Shown: one piece after another, positions 8,020-18,690 of the stretch | Position numbering within the stretch: the first letter of the stretch is position 1 | Layout: the number at the start of each line of letters is the position of its first letter | Assembly (NCBI GenBank): GCA_902630465.1 | Contig: CACOVJ010000008.1 | Location: 1 to 44,050 of the forward strand | Length of the DNA stretch: 44,050 nt | Direction of reading: 5' to 3' | Origin: an uncultured Alphaproteobacteria bacterium | GTDB taxonomy: Bacteria > Pseudomonadota > Alphaproteobacteria > HIMB59 > GCA-002718135 | Made by a program: the position numbers and the translations under genes | Notes under the pieces: model-generated | The model's input: the letters and a program-made list of their open reading frames with translations, nothing else | Told to the model about the DNA's origin: nothing | Database searches by the model: none

Positions 8020-8225
8020 AATTATCCTTTTTTAAAAGATTTTTTTATTTGTTGTGATTTATTAAAATTAACAGAAAAATACATGTTTTAATATTAAAAA
8101 TTAAACATTTTTTTTAATATTAATAAGGATACCTTTCAAGATCTGAAAATAAAGGTAATGAATTTTACTTTTTTTTAGTGATTTTACAAATACTTTAGTA
8201 GCATTTTTGCTAATATTTTATTTGA

Positions 8226-8255
8226 TTGAAATTAAGGAATCTCATAAATTAATAT
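8226..8255 (+). promoter_or_regulatory. Predicted sigma-70 promoter of the boxA leader RNA
   Basis: A -35 element TTGAAA at 8226-8231 and a -10 element TAATAT at 8250-8255 are separated by 18 nt. A start site near 8262 would put the first transcribed bases just before the boxA sequence. The same TTGAAA plus A/T-rich -10 pattern recurs upstream of the small RNA at 18603 and of tRNA-Arg. In AT-rich DNA such matches arise by chance, but here the match leads straight into a boxA, a strong ribosome binding site and a terminator. Confidence 0.55.
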
Positions 8256-8263
8256 TGTTATCG

Positions 8264-8275
8264 TGCTCTTTAACA
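8264..8275 (+). promoter_or_regulatory. boxA antitermination element
   Basis: The 12 bases TGCTCTTTAACA match the E. coli ribosomal RNA leader boxA exactly. In RNA, boxA binds NusB with ribosomal protein S10 and nucleates an antitermination complex. In the E. coli suhB leader a boxA next to the Shine-Dalgarno represses translation. Here boxA sits 2 nt upstream of AAGGAG and no rRNA gene follows in the window. Its place at the very start of a predicted transcript makes chance less likely. Confidence 0.65.
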
Positions 8276-8291
8276 AAAAGGAGTTACAAAA

Positions 8292-8312
8292 ATGAATCCG
8301 CCAACACTTTAA
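8292..8312 (+). CDS. Six-residue leader peptide MNPPTL (putative)
   Basis: ATG at 8292 opens six sense codons, Met-Asn-Pro-Pro-Thr-Leu, closed by TAA. AAGGAG (8278-8283) lies 8 nt upstream, one of the best Shine-Dalgarno and spacer combinations in a window where many genes lack one. The consecutive prolines right after the start are a context in which ribosomes pause and need EF-P. The terminator lies about 90 nt downstream, so translation could influence folding or termination. A chance ORF of this size is common; the strong ribosome binding site is the reason to list it. Confidence 0.4.
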   Translation: MNPPTL

Positions 8313-8403
8313 GGGTGGTGTCCACAACCAAAGCCAACTTTGCAAATTAAGCAGACCTTTTTTTAAAAGGCCTCGCATTAGGTGATGAGCCGAATTTATA
8401 AAA

Positions 8404-8426
8404 CCCCCAAACTACGGGGGTTTTTT
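8404..8426 (+). terminator. Intrinsic terminator of the leader RNA
   Basis: A GC-only stem CCCCC (8404-8408) / GGGGG (8416-8420), extendable by flanking AAA/TTT, with a 7-nt loop, is followed by six T (8421-8426). Orientation is plus. It separates the leader unit from the promoter and gene of the secretion exoprotein. Confidence 0.85.
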
Positions 8427-8437
8427 ATTCTGATTTG

Positions 8438-8465
8438 TTGAAATCTTTATTTTGCTCGATATAGT
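8438..8465 (+). promoter_or_regulatory. Predicted promoter of the two-partner secretion operon
   Basis: TTGAAA (8438-8443) and TATAGT (8460-8465) are separated by 16 nt and lie directly downstream of the terminator at 8404-8426. A start near 8472 leaves a leader of about 30 nt before the ATG at 8503. If active, the exoprotein operon does not depend on read-through of the boxA leader. Predicted by eye only. Confidence 0.5.
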
Positions 8466-8502
8466 CAATAAATTTTTAAATTTAAAATCAGATACTAAGA
8501 TC

Positions 8503-11500
8503 ATGAAAAATATTATTAGTTTTTTTATTTCTTTTCTTTTTTTAGGATCTCAATTTTTATATGCGGCAGATCTTCCAAGTGGAGAAAATGTAGTTGCGGG
8601 TAATATTTCCATTAGTTCATCTGATAATGCTATGACCATTACTCAGTCTTCTCAACAGTCTATAATTGAATGGAATAGTTTTGATATTAGTGCGGAAAAT
8701 AGTGTAACTTTTAATCAACCCTCTATTAATGCCAGTGCTTTAAACCGCGTTATCTCAGGTAATCCAACTACACTTGCTGGTTCATTAAATGCCAATGGTA
8801 AAGTTTTTGTGGTGAATGAAAACGGTGTCTACTTTACACCAACATCTACAATTAATGCGCATTCATTTGCTGCGTCCACCCTTGCTTTATCCAATGATGA
8901 TTTTCTTAACAATAAATTATTATTTAAATTAGATGATGTAGATAATATTTTTTCTTCTATTATTCATAAAGGTTCTATTACAACTTTGGATGGAGGTTTT
9001 ACTGCTCTCTTAGGTGGTGCCATTGATAATGAAGGTACACTTAACGCTAATCTTGGTAAAATTGGAATAGGGGCTGGAAAAGAAATTACATTAGACTTGA
9101 GTGGTGATAAATTTTTGCAAGTAAGCATCCCTTTTACTGAAGCTATTACCTTACTCGATCAAAATGCAGAAGAATTAAATACCATTATTAATCATGCAGG
9201 AACATCAACGGCAAATAGAATAGACATTGATGTTGGTGCTGCGAAAAATGTTGTTCAGCGTGCTGTTAACATTCCAGGCAATCTTGTTGCAACTACTGCT
9301 TCACAACAAAACGGTGTCATTACTCTTGGAAGTGGAAGCGATATTGTTGTTGCAGGAAACTTAACGGCAAAAGAGGGCGGCAACATTAGTGTTGAAGGAG
9401 ACTTTTTATCTTTTGGAGGAGCAGTTGATGTATCTGGAACAAATGTAGGTACAATAAATTTAAATAGCACTGGAGAAATTTCATTAGGAGGAACTTTAAA
9501 TTCTTCTTCTACTAGCAATGATGGTGGTGATATAAGTATTAAATCTCAGTACAAAATTGTTCAAAGTTACGGCAGTGAAATTAGTTCATCAGGAAATACC
9601 AATGGTGGTGATATTCATTTATCCGCACCAAATATTATGTCTTCCGGTTCAGTTTCCGCAAAAGGCAATCAAAAAGGTGGATATATAGACATAGAATCTG
9701 AGGGATATATTCGTTTATTATCTTCCAAGATTGATGTTGCAGGTATTAACCAGGGTGGTTTAGTGCGTATAGGGGGAGAATTTCAAGGCAATAATAACTT
9801 AACAAGAACTGCAGAACAGCAAGAGGTTTTTGTTGATAGATGGAATGAAAGACAATCACTTTCAAATGCGAAAACAGTTTTAGTCTCCGATGGTACTAGC
9901 ATCGATATATCATCTTCAAATGGGAAAGCAGGTACTGCAATTATTTGGAGTGATCAAGAAACAACAATGCTTGGTAATATTCATGCAACAGGAACAACAG
10001 GTGGCGCAGTTGAGATTTCTTCCAAAGATACCTTACGCCATGTGGGATTATCAAATGTTAATATATCAGAAGGTGGTCATTTATTACTTGATCCAAAAAA
10101 TATAACTGTTGGAACAGGTGTAACATCTCAAAACTGGATCTATCGAGGTCTGATTGGACATGATTATATAGTGGCATCAACAAATAATGTTGGTGAAGGA
10201 AACTTGGAAAAAAATGATCATTTTGGATCAGATGTTACGATTAGTGATGATGCTACTTTAATGGCGGTTGGTGCAAGACACGGTGATGGATCTTCAAATT
10301 CAAGTCAAGATTCTGGAGAAGTATATTTGTATAAATTTGATGATGGTGATTTTACGAATGCCACACTAATGGGTCGAATAGGAAAAGGTTATACTGGAGG
10401 TAAAAATATTAATGTAAATACTCTAGGTAAAGCTGATAAATTTGGCCGTTCATTATCTTTTAATAGCGATGGTACTCGATTAGCTGTTGGTGCATCAGGA
10501 GACAGTGGAGCAGTTAGCAATAATTTGACCAATGCAGGTGTAGTTTACCTTATCACCTTTGATGATACTTCTTACTCAAATGGGCAAGTAGTAGGAAGAA
10601 TTGGTCACAGATATACTTCAATGGATAAAGACGTTAACTTAGCCAAACAGGGCAATATTAATGGCAGGAAAGGTGGACCAGTAATTAGCGATTATGATTT
10701 ATTTGGTATGGGTGTAGCTCTTGATGGTGATGCCGATGTTTTAGCTGTTGGATTATATGGTGATAATGGTTGGGAGAGAAGAGGAAAAGGTTCTGTTAAC
10801 ACACTAGATAATACAGGTTCAGTTTACATGATTAGTTTTGATGACTCTGATTTTACTGGAGGAAAAGTAGTTTCACGTATTGGTTATGGTTATAGATATA
10901 AAGTTGGAGGGTGTGTTGATAAAGGTACATGTGCAACATTCGAAAATGATTACAATACACGATTGGGAGGCTGGACACCAAGAGTAGATGATAAACTTGG
11001 TAAATCAGTATCTTTAAACCATGATGGTTCTTTATTAGCTATAGGTAATGAACTTAACGATGGTAATGATAGTTCTCTTGTAGCAAGTACAAATAGAGAT
11101 TCTGGAGCAGTCCATTTATTTAAATTTGTTGATGGTAATGGAGATCTTATTTCAGGAGCATCAGGAGCGCCAACATATGTTGGAACAATTGGAGAAGGTT
11201 ATGACTATTTAGATACAAGCAGTTCATCAGAAAAAAGTGATAAATTTGGAAACTCAGTAGCATTTGATAAAGATGCAGATCGTTTAGTTGTTGGATTTTA
11301 TGATCAAACACAAGCTTCAGGCTCTAAAAGAAAGCCAGGAGCTGTAAACTTATATACTTTAACGAGTAATCTTGCATCAGCAACATTAGTTGGAACAATA
11401 GGAAACGGATATAGTGGAGGTAAAAATTTTAATATTGGTTCTTCCATTGAAGCAAAGGATATTTATGGAGAAGGTGTCGATTTAAATGAGACGGGTAGTC

Positions 11501-13821
11501 GTCTTGTTGTTTCAGGAATGTATGCCGATGGTAATAGTAATGGAAAATCTAACAGTGGAGAGGTCATGCTAATTAAGTTTACTGATGACAATTTTTCAGG
11601 GGGATCTCGTTATGCAAATATTGGATCTGGTTATGGTAGTGCAGGAGGTAATTCATTAGATATTGATGCTAATCTCGATAATAGTGATAAGTTTGGTCGC
11701 GCTGTATCATTAGACAGTGATGGTGATAGATTGGCTGTTGCAACATCTGAAGATGATGGGAATGGAGGAAGCAATTCTAATGCTGGCGCAGTTCATTTAT
11801 TTACATTTGATGATACTAATTTCTCCAATCCAACACTTAAAGGGACTATTGGAAAAGGTTATTCAGGAGATTATAGTTTAGATTTAAGTAGTTTAGGTGA
11901 TGGAGATAAAGTGTGGCGAGTAGCTCTTGATGGGGATGCAGATAGATTAGTTTTATCTCAACAACTAGCTGAGTCAGGTGGTGTTGACTCAGGATCAGTT
12001 TATACAATAAAATTTGATGATACAAACTTTACAAATCCAACACATGTTGGAACTATTGGAAAAAGTTTTAATTCATCAACTCATGATTTATCAATTGCTA
12101 ACTTAGGATCAGGTGATGCATTTACCTCTGTAGCTTTGACAGATGATGGATCACGTCTTGTTGTTGGAGCAATAAAGGATGATGGATCTGATAATAGTAG
12201 CTCAAATGCAGGAGCTGTTTATTTAATTACATTTGATCAAACAACAAACAGTGATGGTAATGCTTCAACAGATTTTAACAATCCTACACATGTAGGAACA
12301 ATTGGAGTAGGTTACTCAGGCACTAAGAGTTTAGACATAGGATCAGGTGCAACTAACGAACTTTTGGATAATAATGATCAGTTTGCAAACTCACTTGCAT
12401 TAACAAAAGATGGAAAGATTTTAGCTGTTAGTTCAACAAATGATGATGGAGCGAACGGAACTACTTCTGATAAAGGAGCGGTGCATTTATTTACTTTTGA
12501 TGACTCAGATTTTACTAATCCAAAATATGAAGCATCAATAGGGAATAATTACACAGGTGGTAAAAATTATGACACATCAGGAATTTCTGATTGGGGAGTT
12601 GCCCAGGTAGCTATTGATGGTGATGGAAATAGATTAGCAACGGGTGATTTCAATGACGGTGATATTCGAATATTTGGATTTGAAGATACTTCCTTAAATG
12701 AAGCAAGTCTGCAATTTACTATTGGTTTTGACCAGTCAGGAACTAATTCAGTAGATATTAGTGACCATGGATTTGAAGATGGTGATACTTTTCCAAATTA
12801 CATTGCATTAGACGATACTGGAACTTTAATGGCTGCAGGATCTACACTTGATGATGGTCTTAGTAATGGTGCTACAAATACAGGAGCAGTATATTTATGG
12901 TCTGATACTATCATCAGAGGGGCTACCTCGTACACAGATTTTTCAAGTGATGACGTGGTCATTAATAAAACTGAATTAGAGGAATTTCTAAATAACGGGG
13001 TGGATGTAACCCTTCAGGCAAATACTGATATTACTATTGACTCTGCCATAACAGTTACAGGAACAGGAAATTTGAATCTTCATGCTGGCAGAGATGTTAA
13101 TATTAATAGCAATATTAATACAGCAGCCAATTTAGGTATTATTGCAAGTGATACAGATAACAATAATGTTTCTGATAGTGATAGAGATTCTGGTGAAGCA
13201 GATATTGATGCAAGTTCAGCAAGTTTAACAGCATCAGATCTCAATATTGAACTCCTAGATGGAGGTACTCTTACTAATGCGAGTATGGGGGATATTAATC
13301 TCTCTACAGTCACAGCTACAACTGGATCTTTAATGTCTGCTAATTTTTCAGTTTCTGGTTCTAGTGCGGATAATAAAACTTATGATGGAACAACAACAGC
13401 TACGGTTAGTGGTGGCACTATATCAGGATTAAATTTAACTGGTTCTGATCTTGCTATAAGTTCTTCCGGTAGTTTCTTAGATCCAGATGTAGGTGACAAT
13501 AAAAATGTACCAATTAATTATGAACTATCAGGATTTACATCAAGTTCTATTTCAATAGATGATAGTAATGGATCATTAGAATCACTTCCAACTGCAAATA
13601 TAACAGCTGGTGCTTCCACACCTCCACTTCCAGGTGTTGCTCCTGATGAAGAAAAAGAAAAAATTGTTGTACGGGAAAAAATAAATAAGGATGTTTTTGA
13701 TGATGTATCGCGAATAATATCTTTTATCTCTGTTGATGGTGCATCCAATGCAGCATTAATTCAAAATGAATTCATTACGTCATTTCCTCAAGTCGATGCT
13801 CTAAGTATTCAGCGTCTATAA
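8503..13821 (+). CDS. Two-partner secretion exoprotein (TpsA) with FG-GAP-like repeats and a YDG domain
   Basis: A large exported protein of 1,772 residues, probably a surface-bound or released adhesin-like filament. The ATG at 8503 is preferred to an upstream TTG at 8452 because it directly begins a signal peptide (1-21, ending LYA). A haemagglutinin activity / TPS domain follows (about 24-150), with the GNPTTLAGSLNANGKVFVVN core and ENGVYF. Glycine-rich beta-helix repeats continue to about 550 and end in LLLDPKNITVG. About 555-1470 is an array of roughly 12 FG-GAP-like units. A YDG domain ([13 protein letters not shown], near 1622-1690) lies close to the C-terminus, after which a charged linker leads to the end. 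Its stop directly abuts the ATG of the transporter gene. Ligand and host surface are unknown. Confidence 0.92.
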   Translation: MKNIISFFISFLFLGSQFLYAADLPSGENVVAGNISISSSDNAMTITQSSQQSIIEWNSFDISAENSVTFNQPSINASALNRVISGNPTTLAGSLNANGKVFVVNENGVYFTPTSTINAHSFAASTLALSNDDFLNNKLLFKLDDVDNIFSSIIHKGSITTLDGGFTALLGGAIDNEGTLNANLGKIGIGAGKEITLDLSGDKFLQVSIPFTEAITLLDQNAEELNTIINHAGTSTANRIDIDVGAAKNVVQRAVNIPGNLVATTASQQNGVITLGSGSDIVVAGNLTAKEGGNISVEGDFLSFGGAVDVSGTNVGTINLNSTGEISLGGTLNSSSTSNDGGDISIKSQYKIVQSYGSEISSSGNTNGGDIHLSAPNIMSSGSVSAKGNQKGGYIDIESEGYIRLLSSKIDVAGINQGGLVRIGGEFQGNNNLTRTAEQQEVFVDRWNERQSLSNAKTVLVSDGTSIDISSSNGKAGTAIIWSDQETTMLGNIHATGTTGGAVEISSKDTLRHVGLSNVNISEGGHLLLDPKNITVGTGVTSQNWIYRGLIGHDYIVASTNNVGEGNLEKNDHFGSDVTISDDATLMAVGARHGDGSSNSSQDSGEVYLYKFDDGDFTNATLMGRIGKGYTGGKNINVNTLGKADKFGRSLSFNSDGTRLAVGASGDSGAVSNNLTNAGVVYLITFDDTSYSNGQVVGRIGHRYTSMDKDVNLAKQGNINGRKGGPVISDYDLFGMGVALDGDADVLAVGLYGDNGWERRGKGSVNTLDNTGSVYMISFDDSDFTGGKVVSRIGYGYRYKVGGCVDKGTCATFENDYNTRLGGWTPRVDDKLGKSVSLNHDGSLLAIGNELNDGNDSSLVASTNRDSGAVHLFKFVDGNGDLISGASGAPTYVGTIGEGYDYLDTSSSSEKSDKFGNSVAFDKDADRLVVGFYDQTQASGSKRKPGAVNLYTLTSNLASATLVGTIGNGYSGGKNFNIGSSIEAKDIYGEGVDLNETGSRLVVSGMYADGNSNGKSNSGEVMLIKFTDDNFSGGSRYANIGSGYGSAGGNSLDIDANLDNSDKFGRAVSLDSDGDRLAVATSEDDGNGGSNSNAGAVHLFTFDDTNFSNPTLKGTIGKGYSGDYSLDLSSLGDGDKVWRVALDGDADRLVLSQQLAESGGVDSGSVYTIKFDDTNFTNPTHVGTIGKSFNSSTHDLSIANLGSGDAFTSVALTDDGSRLVVGAIKDDGSDNSSSNAGAVYLITFDQTTNSDGNASTDFNNPTHVGTIGVGYSGTKSLDIGSGATNELLDNNDQFANSLALTKDGKILAVSSTNDDGANGTTSDKGAVHLFTFDDSDFTNPKYEASIGNNYTGGKNYDTSGISDWGVAQVAIDGDGNRLATGDFNDGDIRIFGFEDTSLNEASLQFTIGFDQSGTNSVDISDHGFEDGDTFPNYIALDDTGTLMAAGSTLDDGLSNGATNTGAVYLWSDTIIRGATSYTDFSSDDVVINKTELEEFLNNGVDVTLQANTDITIDSAITVTGTGNLNLHAGRDVNINSNINTAANLGIIASDTDNNNVSDSDRDSGEADIDASSASLTASDLNIELLDGGTLTNASMGDINLSTVTATTGSLMSANFSVSGSSADNKTYDGTTTATVSGGTISGLNLTGSDLAISSSGSFLDPDVGDNKNVPINYELSGFTSSSISIDDSNGSLESLPTANITAGASTPPLPGVAPDEEKEKIVVREKINKDVFDDVSRIISFISVDGASNAALIQNEFITSFPQVDALSIQRL
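10165..12915 (+). repeat. Protein-level array of about 12 FG-GAP-like repeats inside TpsA
   Basis: About 12 units of 60-100 residues (mean near 76) follow the plan: D-K-F-G-x-S-V-x-L, then D-x-D-G-x-R-L-A-V-G, D-D-G with a Ser/Asn-rich loop, G-A-V-Y/H-L-F-T-F-D-D-T/S-x-F, and a closing G-T-I-G-K-G-Y. The closing motif is recognisable at 11 junctions (for example GRIGKGY, GTIGEGY, GTIGNGY, GTIGKGY). The Asp-rich turns (DSDGDR, DGDADR, DGDGNR) resemble calcium-binding loops. The units suggest beta-propeller blades of the FG-GAP type. They differ enough in DNA sequence that recent duplication is unlikely. Unit 4 has an insertion with two cysteines. Confidence 0.85.
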
Positions 13822-15504
13822 ATGAGATATATTTTTTCTTTATTTTTCTTTATCACTACGTCATTAACTACATTTCCATCTTATACAGATACTGGAAATT
13901 ATATTGTTTATGAAACAGGTCTCATTGTTCCTCCTGGAGCAGAAAATATTTCTTTTAATTTTGTTGGAATAGAAATTGATAATGAAATTGAAGACATGAT
14001 TGAACTCCGAAAGAACTTATTTAAATCAAAAAAATTTAAAACAATAAGTTTAAAAGATTTTTACAATCTCTTAATAGCCTTGGAACAATTATATGTTTTG
14101 AATGGATACTTTTTAACCCGTTTTATTGTGCCACCGCAAACAATTGAACAAAATACTAAGATTAAAGCTATTGTTTTTCCTGGTAAAATTGAGTCAGTTG
14201 ATTATTCTCAGTTAGATAAGCGTATTTCAAAGCCTATCAAAAATTATTTCCAAAAATTAATTGATATAAAAGGCTTAGAATATCCTATCATTGAAAAATC
14301 AATTATTAAATCTAGAGAACTACCAGGAGTAGAGTTGGAGACCACTATTAAAGCTGGTGAAGAGCCAGGTACATCATCTCTTCAACTTAATGCAGAACAT
14401 GATTTGGTCAGTGGTTATCTCACTTATTCTAATGGATTATCAGAAACAGCAGGAAAAGATCAGTTTACTTCTTATTATAGTCTTAATAGTCCATTTGGTT
14501 ATGGTGAAAATATCTATGCAGCATATGTTTTAGACCCAGAAAATAGTGTGCGTGTTCCAATTGATCAAACAGAAATAATTAAACGAACAGATTTTAGAGA
14601 TGCATATCTTGTTGGTGGTAAAGTTCCCATTCTTGCATCTGATTTTTCTATATTTGGTGCCATTAATGAATCTTATTCTGAGCCAAATGGCTTAGAAAAA
14701 AAAGGTGAATTTAAACAAATAAATTTTGGAGTTGAATATCAACTCAAAAATACGCGCTTAGTGAAGAATAATATTTTGCTTGATTGGCAATGGATTAGAG
14801 AAAGAGAATATTCAACTCTTTCTTACTATACTACTGATACATTTAATGATGAATATAATGCACTAGAGTTAAAATATATAACAACAAATTTATCTTTTTT
14901 GGATTCTTTTTCCCTTAAAGGCAACTCTTCTCTAAAGTTTGGCACACCAATGTATACAAATAAAACATCAGAAACAAATACACCTTCTCGTGTTGGCTCA
15001 ACCTTAAATTTCATTAAATGGAATGGTGATATAAATTTAAATAGGCAAATACTTAGAGACTACTCACTTAATACAAGATTTGTTTTTCAAAAACTTGTGA
15101 GTGATCGAGGTTTAGTTAATTCTGAACAAATTAATATCACAGGTCCTGGTCAAATATCTGGGTTTGAGTCAGGTAATATGTCTGGTGACCAAGGATTTTT
15201 TTTTAGAGGTGATTTCGGTAGATCTTTCTATCCATTTATTGACAATCAAGATGATAAAAAAGAAGATTCTATTCGCATAGAACCATACATTCATCTAAGT
15301 GTTGGTGCTACCTACTATAAAAGACCAGCCTCAGGTGAATTTAGTCGAGTAGAAGCTGCAAGTGGTGGGTATGGAATTAAAATAAAAATTCCTCTTAGTT
15401 CAAATAATCTTGATATAAATTTTGAAGTAGCTGAGGCTGACAAAAGTGTGAAAGGAACTACTTCTAGTCCAGTTTATTTATTTAATACAACATTTTCATT
15501 CTAA
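13822..15504 (+). CDS. Two-partner secretion outer-membrane transporter (TpsB, ShlB/FhaC family)
   Basis: Omp85-superfamily pore that moves the partner exoprotein across the outer membrane. The 560 residues include a signal peptide (about 1-22) and two POTRA domains (about 30-190; the first includes the LYVLNGYFLTRFIVPPQ segment typical of POTRA_2). A C-terminal beta-barrel follows (about 195-560), ending in a strand that closes with Phe (NTTFSF). The loop-6 motif, VRGF/Y in FhaC relatives, reads Ile-Ser-Gly-Phe at 445-448, so the conserved arginine is serine. The following MSGDQGFFFRGDF block is conserved. It starts at the base after the tpsA stop codon, so coupling is certain in layout if not proven. 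Confidence 0.93.
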   Translation: MRYIFSLFFFITTSLTTFPSYTDTGNYIVYETGLIVPPGAENISFNFVGIEIDNEIEDMIELRKNLFKSKKFKTISLKDFYNLLIALEQLYVLNGYFLTRFIVPPQTIEQNTKIKAIVFPGKIESVDYSQLDKRISKPIKNYFQKLIDIKGLEYPIIEKSIIKSRELPGVELETTIKAGEEPGTSSLQLNAEHDLVSGYLTYSNGLSETAGKDQFTSYYSLNSPFGYGENIYAAYVLDPENSVRVPIDQTEIIKRTDFRDAYLVGGKVPILASDFSIFGAINESYSEPNGLEKKGEFKQINFGVEYQLKNTRLVKNNILLDWQWIREREYSTLSYYTTDTFNDEYNALELKYITTNLSFLDSFSLKGNSSLKFGTPMYTNKTSETNTPSRVGSTLNFIKWNGDINLNRQILRDYSLNTRFVFQKLVSDRGLVNSEQINITGPGQISGFESGNMSGDQGFFFRGDFGRSFYPFIDNQDDKKEDSIRIEPYIHLSVGATYYKRPASGEFSRVEAASGGYGIKIKIPLSSNNLDINFEVAEADKSVKGTTSSPVYLFNTTFSF

Positions 15505-15510
15505 AATTTT

Positions 15511-16830
15511 ATGTTAAAGATACAATTAATAATGAAATTTTTTATTCTTATTATTCTTAAAATTATATTTTTCTATTCAAACATTGTTAGTGCTGAAGTT
15601 AAAGTAGCTGGACTTTATGCTGAAAGTGGACCGGTTAGTGAAATTGCAGAAGCAATTGCAGAAGCAAAAAGGGTTGTTGTTGAAACCATTAATGCTGATG
15701 GAATAGGTATTGTGGGTAGAGGACTTATTAAGATAGATAAAGTTGATACAGCTTGCGATCCTGCAAAGGCCAAAACAAATTTAAGAGAATATTTGAAAAA
15801 AAATGAGCCTGAAATTCTTTTAGGTCCTACTTGCTCTACAAGTGCAGCTCGTATAATTCAAGACATAACCATTCCAAAAAAAATACTAACTATATCTTCA
15901 TCGGCTAGTTATCCATTATTATCAAGTATTGAAGATAATGATTTATTCTTTAGGACCATACCTTCTGATATTCAACAATCAACTTCTATTGCTAACTATC
16001 TTATTTCAAAAAATATTAGGCAAATAATATTGTTATACGGTGATGATAATTACAATTCAACTCTTGCTCAGAATTTTCTAAAGGTCTTTACAGAGGAAGG
16101 TGGTATAGTTCTTTTTAATACTTTGCTCACAGATAAAACTGTTATTAATCAAAGTTTTATAAATACTTTTGTTGATATTGCGATTGATAATGATCAACCA
16201 GGATTAGTTATGTTTCTTCATGGTAATGAAAGAACTGTGAATTTACTAGAACAATTTACAAATACAGTATTGATTAGATTACAAGAATTACAAACTTCGA
16301 ATATTTTTAAACATCAATATGGTTCAGATAGTATGTTGACTAATGAAGTAAAAGATTTGATTTATTCTTACATACCAATTCAATTACACGAAAGAACAAC
16401 AATTGTTGCACAGGCTACCTCACAAAGTTCCGAAGAGTTCCAAAGTTATGCTAATATTATGTTAAATTCTGGTGTTGATCCCAACTCACCTTATTCAGCA
16501 ATAAGTTTTGATACTATGATGCTAGCAGCATTGGCCTTACAACACCAAGCACATAATAACTATTCTAAAGATGATTTATCAAAAAGTTTAGTTAGTGTTG
16601 CCAATCCCCCTGGCATAACTGTAGGTCCTGGTAGTTGGGAGTCTGCAAGAGCATTATTATTAAGAGGCATTGAAATAAATTATGAAGGAGTATCTGGGTC
16701 TCTTGATTTTGATATTAATGGGGATGTAGAGGGTTTATATTCTTTAAATCAAGTCACAGAAGATAATTTATGGAGTGTTGAGCCTCTTGAAAAACTTCAT
16801 CCTTTTGAGCCAAGAATTATAATTGAATAA
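15511..16830 (+). CDS. Periplasmic ligand-binding protein of the branched-chain amino acid (Peripla_BP_6) type
   Basis: A 439-residue type I periplasmic binding fold like LivJ and related receptors. A signal peptide ends near VSA (about residue 28) with no lipobox cysteine, so a soluble periplasmic protein is expected. The opening strand VKVAGLYAESGPVSE, the GPTCSTSAARII loop and ISSSASYPLLS, then FFRTIPSDIQQSTSIANYL and the GDDNYNSTLAQNF hinge region, follow the family order. No permease or ATPase gene is nearby, so it is an orphan receptor. It starts 6 nt after tpsB; an alternative ATG at 15532 would also give a good signal peptide. It overlaps the next gene by 8 nt. The ligand cannot be told from sequence. 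Confidence 0.85.
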   Translation: MLKIQLIMKFFILIILKIIFFYSNIVSAEVKVAGLYAESGPVSEIAEAIAEAKRVVVETINADGIGIVGRGLIKIDKVDTACDPAKAKTNLREYLKKNEPEILLGPTCSTSAARIIQDITIPKKILTISSSASYPLLSSIEDNDLFFRTIPSDIQQSTSIANYLISKNIRQIILLYGDDNYNSTLAQNFLKVFTEEGGIVLFNTLLTDKTVINQSFINTFVDIAIDNDQPGLVMFLHGNERTVNLLEQFTNTVLIRLQELQTSNIFKHQYGSDSMLTNEVKDLIYSYIPIQLHERTTIVAQATSQSSEEFQSYANIMLNSGVDPNSPYSAISFDTMMLAALALQHQAHNNYSKDDLSKSLVSVANPPGITVGPGSWESARALLLRGIEINYEGVSGSLDFDINGDVEGLYSLNQVTEDNLWSVEPLEKLHPFEPRIIIE

Positions 16831-17371
16831 AATTTTTTTTATTATTTTATCTGTAGTATTTTCTTTAATACCTAATATTGCAAAAACAGAACTTATTGAT
16901 ACTCTAAAAGAAAATAACAAATTAATTTTTATTAGACATGCTCTAGCACCAGGAAATGGTGATCCTGATGAATTTAATATTTTAGACTGTAATACACAGC
17001 GAAACTTAGATAGTATAGGTAAAGAGCAATCAGTGAGATTAGGTCAGTATTTCAAAGTTAACAATGTCCCTATCGATGTTGTTTTATCAAGTGAGTGGTG
17101 TCGTTGTAAAGAAACAGCAAAATTAGCGTTTCAAAATTATGAAACATTTAAACCTCTAAATTCTTTTTATGATCCAAAATTTTATAAAAATAAAGAATCT
17201 CAATTGATCAATCTTAAAAAATTTATTAATAATCTTAAAGACGAGGGGAACATAGTTTTTGTCACTCATTATGTTGTAATTGCTGCCATGTTTGGTATTG
17301 GAGTTACTTCAGGGGAAATTTTAATTGCTGATAGAAATCTTAATGTACTAGGGTCTATTGAAGAATACTAA
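16823..17371 (+). CDS. Periplasmic histidine phosphatase family protein
   Basis: A 182-residue branch-1 histidine phosphatase (phosphoglycerate mutase-like). The motif [10 protein letters not shown] holds the catalytic Arg38-His39. A second arginine region ([15 protein letters not shown], about 90-104) and the later [11 protein letters not shown], with the second catalytic histidine, complete the site. A hydrophobic N-terminus (about 3-20) looks like a signal peptide, so it should act in the periplasm on phosphate esters. The start is TTG at 16823, within the end of the binding-protein gene (8-nt overlap), which argues for translational coupling. No ATG gives the signal peptide. Its stop overlaps the stop of ccrM on the other strand. 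Confidence 0.82.
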
Positions 17372-18438: not shown

Positions 18439-18450
18439 AATTGCAAAAAA

Positions 18451-18504
18451 GAATCTTTAAGCAGTTATGGAATCAGGTCAATCGACTTATCAACAAGACG
18501 AATC
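18451..18504. promoter_or_regulatory. Cluster of three GANTC sites upstream of ccrM
   Basis: GAATC (GATTC on the other strand) occurs at 18451-18455, 18470-18474 and 18500-18504, within 66 bp of the ccrM start. GANTC is the substrate of the adjacent enzyme. In Caulobacter, methylation of GANTC sites in the ccrM promoter region lowers its transcription. Exact promoter elements were not assigned; TTGATA with an 18-nt spacer to CATAAC on the minus strand is one possibility. Confidence 0.6.
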
Positions 18505-18544
18505 TTTTCATTGGGATAAGAGAGAATTTTTTGTAAAAAAACAT

Positions 18545-18572
18545 AAAAAAAAGGGGAGTCTAGCGACTCCCC
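18545..18572 (-). terminator. Intrinsic terminator of the small RNA (and possibly of rnhB)
   Basis: Read on the minus strand, an 8-bp perfect stem GGGGAGTC / GACTCCCC with a 4-nt loop (plus 18553-18572) is followed by eight T (18552-18545). It would end both the small RNA and any read-through from the moaB-rnhB genes. Confidence 0.88.
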
Positions 18573-18603
18573 ATAAAATCATCAAATGGGAGGAATGATG
18601 ATT
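18545..18603 (-). ncRNA. Candidate small RNA with an anti-Shine-Dalgarno loop
   Basis: On the minus strand a predicted 59-nt RNA starts at about 18603. A perfect 8-bp stem (AATCATCA / TGATGATT, plus positions 18577-18584 and 18596-18603) displays the loop UUCCUCCCAUU, which is complementary to ribosome binding sites. A 10-nt linker leads to a perfect GC-rich terminator. A near-consensus promoter ends 3 bp upstream of the first base. The layout resembles the alphaproteobacterial small RNAs with CCUCC-type loops (cuckoo/CcsR and alpha-r families), but I cannot place it in a named family. It lies between rnhB and ccrM in a 252-bp gap that holds no protein gene. Confidence 0.68.
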
Positions 18604-18606
18604 AAT

Positions 18607-18636
18607 ATTATATAAGTTTTCAAATATCTATTTCAA
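18607..18636 (-). promoter_or_regulatory. Predicted sigma-70 promoter of the small RNA
   Basis: On the minus strand, TTGAAA (18636-18631) and a perfect TATAAT (18612-18607) are separated by 18 nt. The predicted start falls at about 18603-18601, at the first base of the anti-Shine-Dalgarno hairpin. It is one of the best promoter matches seen in the window. Confidence 0.65.
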
Positions 18637-18690
18637 TTATGTTCAAGCTATAATTATTATGCAATAATTGCATAATAAGAAAATGTGATT

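Follow-up and report, generated by a model that had tools for sequence, protein, structure and literature searches.

We conclude that positions 8226-8426 of the window, by which we mean the whole 44,050-nucleotide stretch of DNA analysed here, are probably a stand-alone SAR11 small-RNA gene that was acquired horizontally, is transcribed separately and has a fold gated by the ribosome. The conserved unit is a predicted structured RNA of about 160 nt, whose core (8291-8397) recurs with some covariation in three Pelagibacteraceae genera. To judge from the genomes searched, the RNA is carried by a minority of ocean SAR11 bacteria. It has a promoter of its own (by consensus match only) and its own terminator, and its neighbours vary from carrier to carrier. 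We found no description of this RNA in the open-licence literature, including Meyer et al. 2009 (PMC2704228), or in Rfam. SAR11 genomes are streamlined and are considered poor in transcriptional regulators (PMC13198564); a small RNA that has been gained and is held nearly letter for letter is therefore worth testing as a regulator.

In the model that we propose (features in Table 1), the 5' end of the RNA would fold, through a hairpin that we call P0, so as to cover the Shine-Dalgarno sequence belonging to a six-codon Met-X-Pro-Pro mini-ORF. This mini-ORF ends just before GGUGGUG.CCACAACC, the best conserved block, with its Pro-Pro codons forming the 5' arm of helix P1. Since P0 covers the ribosome-binding site and the mini-ORF overlaps P1 and stops against a near-invariant block, the arrival of a ribosome would change the fold, opening P0 and P1 and refolding the downstream domain. 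The product would be a regulatory RNA that targets other RNAs or a protein, with its fold or lifetime gated by the ribosome; action in trans is the simplest reading because the RNA is constant while its neighbours change. We infer the expression, translation, switching and trans action of the RNA from its sequence. A more detailed proposal, which we offer tentatively and consider doubtful as a whole, is that of an unclassified, SAR11-specific RNA carried on a cassette of about 260 bp with no recognisable transposase, where the arrival of a ribosome, or its stalling at Pro-Pro, would switch a trans-acting domain.

Table 1. Features of the putative small-RNA gene and of the DNA that follows it, in window coordinates.
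Feature	Position	Strand	Basis or remark
Sigma-70-like promoter TTGAAA-N18-TAATAT (TTGAAA 8226-8231; TAATAT 8250-8255)	8226-8255	+	Consensus match only
boxA-like 12-mer TGCTCTTTAACA	8264-8275	+	Exact letters; hairpin P0 has its 5' arm at 8265-8271
Shine-Dalgarno AAGGAG (8278-8283) with U8284, 3' arm of P0	8278-8284	+	Pairing across nine leaders
Putative six-codon mini-ORF, ATG AAT CCG CCA ACA CTT TAA (MNPPTL); ATG at 8292, TAA 8310-8312	8292-8312	+	Conservation
Helix P1, CCGCC 8298-8302 / GGTGG 8314-8318	8298-8318	+	96% of cells paired; one-sided changes only
Near-invariant block GGTGGTGTCCACAACC	8314-8329	+	Almost unchanged across three genera
Helix P3, GCAGACCTT / AAGGCCT-C-GC, with conserved A-C mismatch and bulge	8351-8376	+	87% of cells paired; two pairs with compensatory changes
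Hairpin P4, TTAGGTGATGAGCCGAA, near-invariant	8378-8394	+	100% of cells paired; one pair varies one-sidedly
Intrinsic terminator of the RNA gene; stem 8400-8424, T tail	8400-8426	+	Terminator prediction; relatives
Promoter-like TTGAAA-N16-TATAGT (10/12), after the terminator and before the secretion gene; outside the RNA	8438-8465	+	Consensus match
Two-partner-secretion (TPS) exoprotein, downstream neighbour; outside the RNA	8503-13821	+	Pfam
ShlB-like transporter	13822-15504	+	Pfam

A sequence-only reading of this region had reported TTGAAA-N18-TAATAT, an exact TGCTCTTTAACA at 8264-8275, AAGGAG two bases on, a 6-residue ORF and a terminator, and these letters are all correct. Its description of a short transcript stands in so far as the region is a discrete short unit with its own promoter-like site, ribosome-binding site, mini-ORF and terminator; the Nus/boxA role that it gave this transcript does not. 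The promoter match (9/12) is unremarkable, as 4 such sites occur in 8020-8520 against 3.2 in shuffles, and it is the terminator-like sites of that interval that stand out (2 against 0.1 expected). We infer a transcription start near 8262, and -10-like hexamers lie at roughly the position of TAATAT in relatives. About 85 nt separate the stop codon of the mini-ORF from the terminator, which is seen also in the copies from the same genus and in both copies of genome G103, and not in the copy of genome G104. Beyond the RNA, positions 8503-17371 encode the TPS exoprotein (with TPS, FG-GAP and YDG domains), the ShlB-like transporter, and periplasmic-binding-protein-like and histidine-phosphatase-like proteins, a large secreted-protein operon within a streamlined genome.

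A covariance model built from ten distinct sequences matched the core in 13 of the genus's 102 genomes and in two that represent the other two genera, G103 with two matches and G104 with one, at E values of about 1e-15 to 1e-25. A match in G054 looked by eye like rpoB coding sequence and was rejected. Searching 39 genomes of other genera with a laxer filter gave nothing further that was convincing (best other E 0.05), a search of 385 genomes from across the class found the window alone, and none of 44 records from other organisms, picked up by a pattern scan as signs of spread outside SAR11, held a believable match to the model. No DNA match to the RNA was present in phage and plasmid collections and two patterns found nothing in viral contigs; the single viral-contig match of a third pattern lay inside a phage coding gene.

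Absence of the RNA is uncertain genome by genome, the assemblies being incomplete (that of the window, at 1.02 Mb, is about 77% complete), and the empty sites are direct evidence. Of 30 fetched loci, 21 are without the RNA, and in these a GNAT-like gene, itself found in 74 of the 102 genomes of the genus, leads straight into a MATE-type gene; alignment of carriers with non-carriers places an inserted block of about 260 bp between the two. In the window, further genes separate the RNA from the GNAT-like gene. The 8-mer ACTAATAT is single in non-carriers and occurs on both sides of the block in L132, and with a few mismatches in the others (L130, L134, L137, L146 and L150). This near-repeat resembles a target duplication, a reading on which we do not lean because ACTAATAT is also -10-like; terminal inverted repeats were not seen by eye at the inserted block. 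Carriers did not form one group in a tree of the GNAT gene (support values were not considered), and their scatter fits either spread by recombination or repeated loss. It is of note that an integrase-like gene lies no more than about 3 kb from one of the two copies in the G103 genome (L052 and L051), and that the other copy is beside genes named by eye as DNA cytosine methyltransferase-like and Vsr-like nuclease genes. In two genera, a small CxxC protein with a hydrophobic C-terminus, without relatives in phage records, is encoded immediately upstream of the RNA (L050:5123-5338 and a matching frame in L052).

Within the core, the blocks GGUGGUG.CCACAACC, AGCAGA and AUUAGGYGA..AGCCGAA are near-invariant. 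Across the whole structure 92.6% of cells are paired, compared with 90.0% after shuffling, and 0 of 500 shuffles reached as high; the covariation score likewise exceeded all 500 shuffles, for sequences that are related and a structure drawn from the same alignment. Covariation, for which the sequence-only reading had suggested aligning the leader, appeared in part, as two pairs of P3 are changed on both sides and P0 and P1 show one-sided changes only. It is thin, since the number of distinct sequences is only about ten and one genus supplied 13 of the 16 copies. Rfam returned no match to the RNA at gathering score and nothing convincing at a lax threshold; the hits to rimP, Phe_leader and others were weak, below gathering and rested mainly on the terminator. 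We inspected a hammerhead-like GAUGAG..CGAA in P4 and rejected it, since L016 has GGC-GAAUAA-GCC there, which keeps the hairpin and not the hammerhead core.

The mini-ORF reads M-[N/S]-P-P-[T/A]-x-stop in all 13 copies from the genus. Elsewhere it reads IPPVV after a TTG start (L037) or MIPP... in a longer frame (L016). The G104 copy (L015) may be decayed, as its start codon and one Pro codon are lost and a terminator was not seen in the sequence that follows. In L007 and L008, CCG has become CCC, which keeps the Pro and breaks the centre pair of P1; that Pro is kept at the expense of P1 hints that the mini-ORF is coding. Substitutions in the mini-ORF are without a clear third-position bias, the changes being too few for a test.

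The resemblance to boxA upstream of the mini-ORF is, according to folding, best explained as the pyrimidine arm of P0 covering the ribosome-binding site. CUCUUU complements AAGGAG, one G-U included, and when the leader of the window is folded, the boxA-like tract and the Shine-Dalgarno sequence form a hairpin with 6-7 pairs. Each of the nine distinct leaders from the genus folds P0 at the corresponding position (weakly in L012, at -1.6 kcal/mol), and the hairpin persists over the Shine-Dalgarno sequence while matches to boxA fall from 11/11 to 7/11. In register, 92.5% of cells in the nine leaders are paired, versus 34-64% when the arms are slid, and for most leaders 1-11% of the shuffles of the 5' tract alone were as stable as P0, the figure for L012 being 27%. 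The changes in P0 are one-sided (G-U to G-C, C-G to U-G and U-G to C-G); since double changes are absent and the shuffle control cannot discriminate, we regard P0 as consistent pairing and not as proven covariation. Our claim for P0 is limited to this genus, because the 5' ends differ in the other two genera. Next to a Shine-Dalgarno sequence, a string that looks like boxA may simply be the complement of that sequence, and given that CUCUUU pairs with AAGGAG, calls of boxA made near ribosome-binding sites from a single sequence need relatives.

We considered the alternatives against the same evidence. That the 12-mer is a true boxA, with NusB-S10 binding nascent 8264-8275 and either antiterminating into the secretion operon or blocking the loading of ribosomes in the manner of suhB, now seems to us hardly credible. 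The resemblance itself is close: the letters are exactly those of the E. coli rRNA boxA, the published consensus GYTCTTTAANA (PMC5725501) is matched exactly at 8265-8275, and AAGGAG is two bases away. A comparison with the rRNA leader boxA of the same genome, proposed in the sequence-only reading, came out in favour of that reading, as TGCTCTTTAATA, about 165 nt before the 16S gene, is identical to the 12-mer at 11 of 12 bases. NusB was not found in this assembly, 77% complete, an absence that is probably due to incompleteness because NusB is present in most of the genus (NusB-domain proteins, NusB-sized ones included, in 86 of 102 genomes). Frequency argues the other way. The 1.02-Mb assembly has a single exact TGCTCTTTAACA; tolerating one mismatch raises the count to 10, compared with 5 for the reversed pattern (in the window, 1 against 0.47 expected). 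The consensus is at chance level genome-wide (18 against 16 for the reversed pattern), so that chance alone would be expected to yield a boxA-like match in 44 kb of sequence. Among the 13 carriers of the genus the consensus is kept in 5 (L002-L006, L004 as GCTCTTTAAAA), and matches drop to 10/11 in L007, 9/11 in L008 and 7-8/11 in L009-L014; none was seen at the element in either G103 copy or in that of G104. In genomes of the boxA-less group (G069, G029, G023 and G091), TGCTCTTTAA is kept before the 16S gene, indicating that boxA is retained where it is known to function and lost here. L044, L046 and L048 have the RNA and terminator without boxA, and a TPS gene further downstream. This retention of RNA and terminator without boxA is essentially the outcome that the sequence-only reading had named as fatal to its proposal of an antitermination leader for the secretion operon, an operon that is moreover not the usual neighbour, which is MATE-type, and that has its own promoter-like site. 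The boxA of suhB is broadly conserved in Enterobacteriaceae (PMC5725501), whereas that of the element varies even within a genus. The element shares with the suhB and rRNA boxA elements (PMC5725501) identical letters near a Shine-Dalgarno sequence, but these are not retained in relatives, are not enriched in the genome and are explained by Shine-Dalgarno pairing.

We also judge it unlikely that the RNA is a cis-acting attenuator or riboswitch-like leader that gates read-through into the next gene, be it MATE-type or the TPS exoprotein. In leader-peptide attenuators and riboswitches, a gene is preceded by a mini-ORF, alternative stems and a terminator, and in one genus the RNA has this anatomy: a co-directional gene follows shortly after the terminator in all 13 carriers, making cis action possible within the genus, and the cassette lies inside a former GNAT-MATE intergenic region. 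Unlike those leaders, however, the RNA has no constant downstream gene. Directly behind it is a MATE-type transporter in 10 of the 13 carriers (with a TPS-type gene next in 4 of the 10) and a TPS exoprotein in 3 of 13, a distribution at odds with a constant association with the TPS operon; the genes of relatives were named by eye and by clustering with those of the window, which were identified by Pfam. The genes around the G103 and G104 copies are unrelated, with neither a TPS nor a MATE-type gene behind. The two G103 copies are without a plausible co-directional gene start within 600 nt, and the terminator-less G104 copy precedes a 106-aa frame of another kind that starts 234 nt after the conserved block. 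Furthermore, a separate promoter-like site precedes the TPS gene, and a conserved antiterminator pairing was not found. Very improbable, in our estimation, is a CreT-like RNA that would sequester ribosomes or tRNAs through stalling at Pro-Pro or at rare Pro codons before a stable structure. CreT toxins (PMC8501985) likewise combine a strong Shine-Dalgarno sequence, an ATG, a six-codon mini-ORF with paired slow codons and stable downstream structure, and CCG is the second-rarest sense codon of the window genes (11/12192 codons), CCC being rare too. The two consecutive rare codons of CreT are nonetheless not found here, for in most copies the Pro codons are CCG CCA, only one of them rare, and rarity is not conserved, since L016 uses CCA CCA, the common codon. 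The RNA differs from CreT (PMC8501985) also in its intrinsic terminator and in its long 3' domain, conserved far beyond the need of such a role, and no CreA or CRISPR partner was recognised by eye among its neighbours. A CreT-like trap would, by analogy, fit the 5' half of the RNA and neither L016 nor the conserved 3' half.

The stand-alone small RNA that we favour can be compared with the SAR11_0636 motif of Meyer et al. 2009 (PMC2704228), a three-stem junction that is thought to be separately transcribed and whose neighbours vary. Both this motif and the other Pelagibacter candidates of that study (PMC2704228) are, like the RNA described here, structured RNAs in SAR11 intergenic DNA. The neighbour genes of SAR11_0636 are different, and the two RNAs are set apart by the published description of the three-stem junction and by the lack of a match between our RNA and any Rfam model. 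Elsewhere in the window, positions 18439-18690 form a gap between a DNA methyltransferase gene (Pfam) and an RNase HII-like gene (by eye), the arrangement that surrounds the third of the Pelagibacter motifs in Meyer et al. 2009 (PMC2704228); on the minus strand, this gap gave weak Rfam hits, both below gathering, to AniS (E 0.0027) and suhB/mmgR (E 0.16).
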